From an uncultured Bacilli bacterium (lineage in GTDB: Bacteria > Bacillota_I > Bacilli_A > RFN20 > CAG-449): a stretch of 41,529 nt of DNA. The DNA is taken from assembly GCA_947626895.1 (NCBI GenBank), contig CANQTY010000007.1, positions 1 through 41,529 on the forward strand, written 5' to 3'. Shown one piece after another: positions 1,984-3,331 of the stretch. The notes below the pieces were generated by a model. That model was not told the DNA's origin, searched no databases, and saw nothing but the letters and a program-made list of their open reading frames with translations. Each line of letters starts with the position of its first letter. Position 1 is the first letter of the stretch. Made by a program: the position numbers and the translations under genes.

Positions 1984-2038
1984 ATTTTTACTAGAAAGGA
2001 TACTTTAAAGTAATAAGTGATTGACAACAAAGAGTTAG

Positions 2039-2168
2039 GTTGTAAACCGTCCTAGTTTGAAAGTAATGTTTGAGAGTAATGTTAAAATAAGGGTTCTTAT
2101 AGAAATCAATTGATTTGGGATGTTAATAAAGCTAACCGAAAAGGTGAGTTAAAAGACATCCCATTTTT
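2039..2168 (+). ncRNA. Candidate orphan tracrRNA (type II CRISPR)
   Basis: The segment follows the tracrRNA plan. It opens with GTTGTAAACC (2039-2048), the complement of a repeat ending in ACAAC. An anti-repeat-like stretch follows and ends in TTAAAAT (2082-2088). Next come a nexus-like hairpin ATAAG-GGTT-CTTAT (2087-2100), a GAAATCAA stretch leading into the palindrome 2103-2116, and a terminal stem GGGATGT/ACATCCC (2117-2123/2156-2162) followed by ATTTTT. A 13-bp unit, TTTGAAAGTAATG, is tandemly repeated with one change (2056-2068, 2069-2081), which would bulge the duplex. No cas genes or repeat array are in the window. I cannot place its promoter with confidence. The similarity is from memory of S. 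thermophilus and S. pyogenes tracrRNAs, not an alignment. Confidence 0.4.
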
Positions 2169-2617: not shown

Positions 2618-3331
2618 ATGGGTATTATTCATAAAATTGTTAAAAAAATAACACAACCAATTGAAAATAATATACGCGGTAAAAGGGGAGAAAGAAAGGT
2701 AGATTCTGCTTTAAATCCTTTAATTTTTGGAAGAGTAAATCATCGTCAAATTAATAACTTAATTCTTTTAGATGAAAGAGGAAAAAGTCATCAAATAGAC
2801 CATGTGGAAATAAGAGAAAACGGCATTTTTTGTATTGAAACAAAAAACTATAAAGGCTATCTTTTTGGAGATGAATTTCAAGATCAATGGACGCAATCAT
2901 TATATAATGGAGAAAAGCATTCTTTAGTTAATCCTATTAAACAAAATAAATCCCATATTTATCACCTAAATAGAATCTTAGGAAATAAATATAAGATTCA
3001 TTCAGTGATTGTTTTAGTACAAAATAATGCTGAAAGAATGAATATTCCTTATGTAATAAATCTTAATCAATTAAAAGACTACTTAAAAAACTTTAATGAT
3101 GGAACTCATTTAACAAATGATGAAATGGATGAAATAGAAGAAACTTTATTAAGCAATGCCACGAAAATGAGTAATAGAGAACATGTTAAAAATATTAAAC
3201 AAACTCAAAAAGAATTAAAAAAGGGTATTTGTCCTCGTTGCGGAGGAAAATTAGTAGAACGAGATGGAGAACATGGTAAATTTATAGGATGTTCTAATTA
3301 TCCTAAGTGTAAATTTACAATAAAGAATTAG
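2618..3331 (+). CDS. NERD-domain nuclease-like protein with zinc ribbon
   Basis: A 237-aa protein with a NERD (nuclease-related) domain at about residues 20-140. Conserved stretches are GKRGE near the start, QIDHVEI with the catalytic-type Asp, and the FCIETKNYKG strand giving the E-x-K of the restriction-endonuclease fold. The C-terminus is a topoisomerase-type zinc finger (about residues 204-237) with CPRCGGKLVERDG, GCSNYPKC and a short tail, usually a single-stranded DNA-binding module. It is probably a DNA-processing or defence-associated nuclease. A good GAAGGAG site precedes the ATG and a TATAAT (2583-2588) may be its -10. It stands alone, with no operon partners. Confidence 0.8.
   Translation: MGIIHKIVKKITQPIENNIRGKRGERKVDSALNPLIFGRVNHRQINNLILLDERGKSHQIDHVEIRENGIFCIETKNYKGYLFGDEFQDQWTQSLYNGEKHSLVNPIKQNKSHIYHLNRILGNKYKIHSVIVLVQNNAERMNIPYVINLNQLKDYLKNFNDGTHLTNDEMDEIEETLLSNATKMSNREHVKNIKQTQKELKKGICPRCGGKLVERDGEHGKFIGCSNYPKCKFTIKN

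Follow-up and report, generated by a model that had tools for sequence, protein, structure and literature searches.

A solitary CRISPR repeat in an uncultured Bacilli genome as the likely deletion scar of a type II-A CRISPR-Cas locus

Positions 2039-2168 of a 41.5 kb contig, the whole of which was analyzed and is here termed the window, display a series of motifs that resembles the parts of a tracrRNA, and the question is what such an element represents where neither cas genes nor a CRISPR array accompany it. An earlier note had read it as a possible type II tracrRNA encoded on the plus strand; its derivation from a type II CRISPR system is upheld here, while its strand, extent and nature are revised, and the feature is recast as positions 2055-2103, probably with a decayed nexus to the left. 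The individual motifs do occur where the note had placed them, i.e., a tandem 13-mer (GTTTGAAAGTAAT followed by GTTTGAGAGTAAT) occupies 2055-2080, TTAAAATAAGG spans 2082-2092, AUAAG..CUUAU forms a small hairpin at 2087-2100, and the arms of a terminal stem, GGGATGT..ACATCCC, lie at 2117-2123 and 2156-2162 and are followed by TTTTT. The genome of the window (G000) is a 1.5 Mb MAG, 91.6% complete and distributed over 102 contigs, and for comparison a DNA search with positions 1995-2200 as the query was performed against 98 relatives, which returned matches to CRISPR arrays. The features to which these and the following comparisons lead are:

2020-2054, minus strand: possible decayed tracrRNA nexus, GGTTTACAACCTAA (junction-anchored alignment to the tracrRNAs of G002 and G031)
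2055-2067, minus strand: partial copy of the repeat, interpreted as what is left of a tracrRNA anti-repeat (same arrangement in G001)
2068-2092, plus strand (sense): opening 25 nt of a solo type II-A CRISPR repeat (compared with array repeats of relatives)
2093-2103, plus strand: degenerate 3' end of the repeat (alignment; terminal repeats of relatives are alike)
2117-2162, plus strand: stem-loop with T-run, outside the tracrRNA (homologue on contig C33, located 3' of an AlbA/Schlafen-type gene)

Identity and strand of the repeat

The segment 2068-2092, GTTTGAGAGTAATGTTAAAATAAGG, aligns with GTTTGAGAGTAATGTTAAATAAGG, which is found in the 36 array copies of G004, and with GTTTGAGAGTAATGCAAAATAAGG of G002, while array-repeat variants of it are also present in G012 and G024; it thus matches the repeats of relatives that carry type II-A cas genes. 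A 19-mer contained in it, GTTTGAGAGTRATGTTAAA, occurs in only six records among 257 Gb of bacterial and archaeal genomes (GTDB contigs), four of which are relatives from the window's family, where it lies in CRISPR arrays or solo scars, the other two being isolated matches in Bacteroidota. The match is not due to chance, the 19-mer is essentially confined to the window's family, and the identity of 2068-2092 as a CRISPR repeat is beyond reasonable doubt. The 19-mer is absent from IMG/VR, and the exact 24-mer of the window repeat is absent from both GTDB contigs and IMG/VR. In G004 and G002 the final array repeat likewise diverges past AAGG, as does the window copy at 2093-2103 (a segment that includes part of the small hairpin, called nexus-like in the note), and the solo repeat probably once closed an array as its terminal unit.

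The statement of the earlier note that the window holds no cas gene and no array was confirmed, and extends to the assembly as a whole: G000 returned no match to the Cas9 HNH family, to TIGR01865 or to the Cas9 protein of a relative, nor any match to Cas1. Furthermore, G000 contains no repeat copies beyond 2055-2092, its two TTTGAGAGTAATGT-like sites both being located there, and these two copies abut without a spacer, so that they do not constitute a CRISPR array in the sense of at least two repeats with spacers. Given a MAG of 91.6% completeness in 102 contigs, a cas9 locus could still lie in unassembled DNA.

In the intact type II-A loci of relatives the array repeat reads GTTTGAGAGTAATG...AAGG, and therefore the plus strand of 2068-2092 is repeat-sense, so any tracrRNA would sit on the minus strand. 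Relatives with a located tracrRNA carry it just upstream of, and divergent from, cas9, in the order of anti-repeat (...ACATTACGAGTTCAAATAAA), nexus, then hairpin and T-run; read on the cas9-sense strand, the anti-repeat resembles the array repeat in degenerate form and runs the same way as the array. Duplex energies agree with this strand assignment, the family repeats pairing at -30 to -36 kcal/mol with the minus strand of the window and at -5 to -10 kcal/mol with the plus strand.

A functional plus-strand tracrRNA serving a distant Cas9 and array, as the earlier note had envisaged, is suggested by the superficial order of the parts and by the hairpin followed by a T-run. That order dissolves, however, when its parts are considered separately, since TTAAAATAAGG, taken in the note for the tracrRNA junction, is sequence of the repeat itself, and the terminal stem has a homologue of its own in the 3' flank of an AlbA gene. 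The orientation is also opposite to that of the cas9-linked tracrRNAs of the order, and G000 lacks cas9, cas1 and a complementary repeat: the repeat that the note had predicted, CAAACTAGGACGGTTTACAAC, is found nowhere else in G000 with up to 3 mismatches, and the repeats of relatives pair with the minus strand instead. A cas9 search of G000 and a tracrRNA model check, both proposed in the note, were equally negative. The model employed, R1, is a sequence-only model built from 12 cas9-linked tracrRNAs (RNAalifold gave no common base pair on which a covariance model could be based), and it matches neither strand of 2039-2168, while an Rfam search of 1800-2700 with E values up to 1 returned zero matches. 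Finally, the plus strand of 1900-2620 yielded no promoter-like site. The plus-strand reading is therefore largely refuted and is hardly credible, whereas the 'remnant' option of the same note is supported.

Intact loci and cas9-less scars in relatives

An intact locus is carried by G004, a MAG from the 'Lapin' set that derives from an uncultured Bacilli organism and in which 36 copies of GTTTGAGAGTAATGTTAAATAAGGTATCTAATTAAC at 66-base spacing directly follow cas9, cas1, cas2 and csn2, thereby defining a type II-A locus; its Cas9 is 1409 aa long and contains REC, HNH, RuvC and PI domains. G002, which belongs to the window's genus, carries the repeat GTTTGAGAGTAATGCAAAATAAGGTATAACTACAAC and cas1. 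The cas9 gene of G002 (L035 12106-16318, G002:C23) is split into two frames of 665 and 615 aa, which suggests that this locus is also decaying, or an assembly error. In G012:C21 (L033 1-960), a 15-repeat array lies at the contig end of a 65% complete genome in which no cas9 was found, this locus being cut by assembly.

Three relatives, i.e., G001, G007 and G010, display the arrangement proposed for the window, a tracrRNA stub abutting a repeat, and lack cas9. In G007 and G010 a tracrRNA terminator and nexus run straight into a repeat, and their flanks match those of G004 at about 96% and 99% on either side of the L032 999/9513 boundary. Relative to G004, an intact counterpart with the same flanks, these genomes lack 8,513 bp (L032 1000-9512), a stretch that begins at the nexus of the tracrRNA, reaches as far as the last spacer and comprises the anti-repeat, cas9, cas1, cas2, csn2, the leader and all spacers, and the deletion ends exactly at the first base of the terminal repeat. 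A scar from the window's own family can thus be set beside its complete pre-deletion form. In G001, a member of the window's genus without cas9 or cas1, a tracrRNA reading ...TTTGAACTCGTAA is joined to GTTTGAGAGTAATGTAAAATAAGG (starting GTTTGAG...), and its left part is recognized as a tracrRNA by R1 (E=1.5e-6). The corresponding junction in the window joins ...GTTTGAAAGTAAT to GTTTGAGAGTAATGTTAAAATAAGG.

A census in which R1 matches were set against a Cas9 search in the same 98 genomes yielded two further cas9-less cases, G097 and G034, both of the form tracrRNA-(spacer-repeat)1-2. G097:C44 (L154 11700-11850) contains a tracrRNA, a full-length, hybrid-looking anti-repeat, one 30-nt spacer and a terminal repeat; G034:C11 (L153 7800-7960) is organized in the same way with two 30-nt spacers, and outside the tracrRNA core its anti-repeat does not differ from the neighboring array repeat. 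Such structures, with their possible hybrid anti-repeats, are what recombination between a tracrRNA anti-repeat and a near-terminal array repeat would be expected to produce. R1 matches in G095 and G041, and a second match in G007, were judged to be due to chance (weak scores, no adjoining repeat). Separately, in G053:C55:5412-5962 (L155) a tracrRNA-like match precedes the 5' part of a cas9 gene, which is interrupted by an internal stop; this is possibly another decaying locus.

The left half of the element and its surroundings

If the right half of the element is a repeat, what adjoins it on the left? The segment 2055-2067 meets the repeat exactly at the first base of the latter, and this left 13-mer has one mismatch to the repeat and is nearer to it than to tracrRNA anti-repeats. 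When the 13-mer is held fixed and the left flank is aligned from the junction, similarity to the tracrRNAs of G002 and G031 is obtained with p 0.011 and 0.004, respectively, and the maximum over five reference tracrRNAs has p about 0.018; unanchored or whole-stub alignment of the same flank to tracrRNAs stays at background level and is not significant. Because R1 misses this segment, the unanchored alignment is at background and the anchored value, p about 0.02, is only suggestive, the origin of the left half (2055-2067 plus flank) from a tracrRNA is graded as probable but unproven.

Whatever its origin, the element is probably not a working RNA. The AGTTCAAATAAA core, present in nearly all tracrRNAs of relatives, is broken in the window, where it reads TTTCAAACTAGG, and the minus strand has no T-run terminator; together with the missing R1 match, these features led us to reject a functional minus-strand type II-A tracrRNA. 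The broken core and missing terminator, the lack of an array and cas9, and the lack of a promoter-like site nearby underlie the non-functional reading; the promoter-like sites of the minus strand are confined to 2488-2608, at a clear distance from the element, and are as many as chance would give.

The terminal stem is separate from the repeat. Its region is 72% identical over 86 nt to the homologue on C33, where the neighboring gene was assigned as AlbA/Schlafen-type by domain search, and in predicted folds the arms GGGATGT/ACATCCC of the window correspond to GAGATGT/ACATCTC on C33, with one compensated pair. This homology to an AlbA 3' flank places the stem at 2117-2162 outside the CRISPR feature, and its candidacy as the tracrRNA's own 3' terminator was rejected on the same ground.

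Other elements are found in the same interval. Positions 2401-2440, comprising three tandem TTTTCTGGTTG-like units, are 95% identical over 40 bp to G000:C33:14695-14734; the C33 copy sits upstream of the AlbA/Schlafen-type gene, whereas no AlbA gene follows in the window, and the window copy may be the relic of an AlbA gene upstream of the NERD gene. A 52-bp element at 2203-2254, containing TTGTTGTGCTAAGGCCAAAAATAATTTTTAG, is 92% identical to G000:C67:214-265. The AlbA-type stem, the 40-bp unit related to the AlbA upstream region and the repeat shared with C67 make the interval 1984-2617 look like a graveyard of elements. It is bounded by a gene at 1270-1983 on the left and by the NERD gene at 2618-3331 on the right, and the neighbors in the window with a domain match are chromosomal-type genes. 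In G002 an AlbA-like reading frame is followed directly by the NERD orthologue, and orthologues of the left gene are present in G001 and G002, but other genes come next; no intact relative sharing the window's own flanks was found.

Probable origin as a deletion scar and place among known systems

In our reading, held with a confidence of about 0.78, positions 2055-2103 are what remained after a type II-A CRISPR-Cas locus was deleted; the element is most likely a fossil stump, in which a terminal repeat is joined to the apparent stub of a guide-RNA gene, similar stumps being present in several relatives. The ancestor would have had the arrangement tracrRNA (minus strand)-cas9-cas1-cas2-csn2-array (plus strand). 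As the anti-repeat is a degenerate direct copy of the array repeat, recombination or slippage between the two is possible, and could have stripped out every cas gene together with the leader and most spacers in a single step, leaving the first base of the terminal repeat (2068-2103) directly next to the anti-repeat stub (2055-2067), with a decayed nexus probably to the left of the latter. The identity and orientation of the repeat, the lack of cas9, cas1 and an array in the assembly, and a scar of this type beside its complete form in the same family are shown; the tracrRNA origin of the left half and the recombination route are the two parts of this explanation that we infer. Counting against it are the missing intact relative with the window's flanks, the weak resemblance of the left half to tracrRNAs, the closeness of the left 13-mer to the repeat and the incompleteness of the MAG.

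The main rival to the tracrRNA half is a plain 13-bp tandem duplication: an array would have collapsed to its terminal repeat, the flank being ordinary DNA without a tracrRNA stub. The single mismatch between the left 13-mer and the repeat, the non-significant whole-stub comparison and the absence of an R1 match all accord with this account, yet the recurrence of the same tracrRNA-repeat junction in G001, G007 and G010, and the anchored alignment to two tracrRNAs (p 0.004-0.012), speak against it, and we regard it as possible but doubtful. Assembly could also have collapsed an existing CRISPR locus, as arrays often break assemblies and the MAG is 91.6% complete; however, the repeat is flanked by genes within a 41.5 kb contig rather than placed at a contig end, and its junction recurs in other genomes, making such an artefact very improbable. 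A mobile element might instead express the solitary repeat as a Racr-like RNA anti-CRISPR, an idea for which a single sense repeat followed by a terminator-like hairpin and the known action of viral solitary repeat units (PMC10651486) may be cited, but it is similarly improbable: the plus strand of 1900-2620 has no promoter-like site, BLAST against phages and plasmids and the IMG/VR searches gave no match, the neighboring genes with a domain match are of chromosomal type, and the similar solo repeats of relatives sit exactly at deletion junctions.

A variant concerns the route of the deletion. The first base of the repeat is the point that Cas1-Cas2 attacks in spacer integration. Because the scars of G001, G007/G010 and the window end exactly at this base, the zero-spacer scars might have arisen by the adaptation integrase joining a broken tracrRNA end to the terminal repeat, in which case the system would have excised itself rather than being lost by homologous recombination. 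With three or fewer independent events, the exact junction is only a lead in this direction, and we think self-excision unlikely.

A deletion scar of this type would matter since loss of CRISPR-Cas is common, yet its footprints are rarely recognized. In this gut Bacilli order, the anti-repeat appears to be a built-in direct repeat that enables deletion of the whole cas9 operon, and the tracrRNA-(spacer-repeat)n stumps that remain could be misread as orphan tracrRNAs or as solo repeat units, as well as being usable for counting past losses of CRISPR-Cas9 in genomes that now lack the system. Among open-licence papers, represented mostly by title and abstract, there was no description of an 'orphan tracrRNA', nor of tracrRNA-repeat recombination or fusion as a route or footprint of cas9-operon loss.

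Compared with the intact type II-A loci of G004 and G002 (tracrRNA-cas9-cas1-cas2-csn2-array), the window shares the start and orientation of the repeat, and probably also the relation of anti-repeat to array repeat, the former being a degenerate version of the latter in direct orientation; unlike these loci, the window is devoid of cas genes, a leader, spacers and a functional tracrRNA. As in Racr (PMC10651486), a single repeat lies away from cas genes, but the window lacks the promoter-like site and the viral or mobile context, and in its relatives the solo repeat marks a deletion point. Degradation and loss of CRISPR-Cas9 are well described in Mollicutes (PMC6882279), and deletion escapers of Staphylococcus epidermidis lose CRISPR-Cas (PMC3784566); in these cases, as proposed for the window, the whole locus is gone and little or nothing is left. 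Those published deletions proceeded via IS elements, homologous genes or SCCmec excision, whereas in the window's order it is the tracrRNA and a repeat of the array that meet at the junction.
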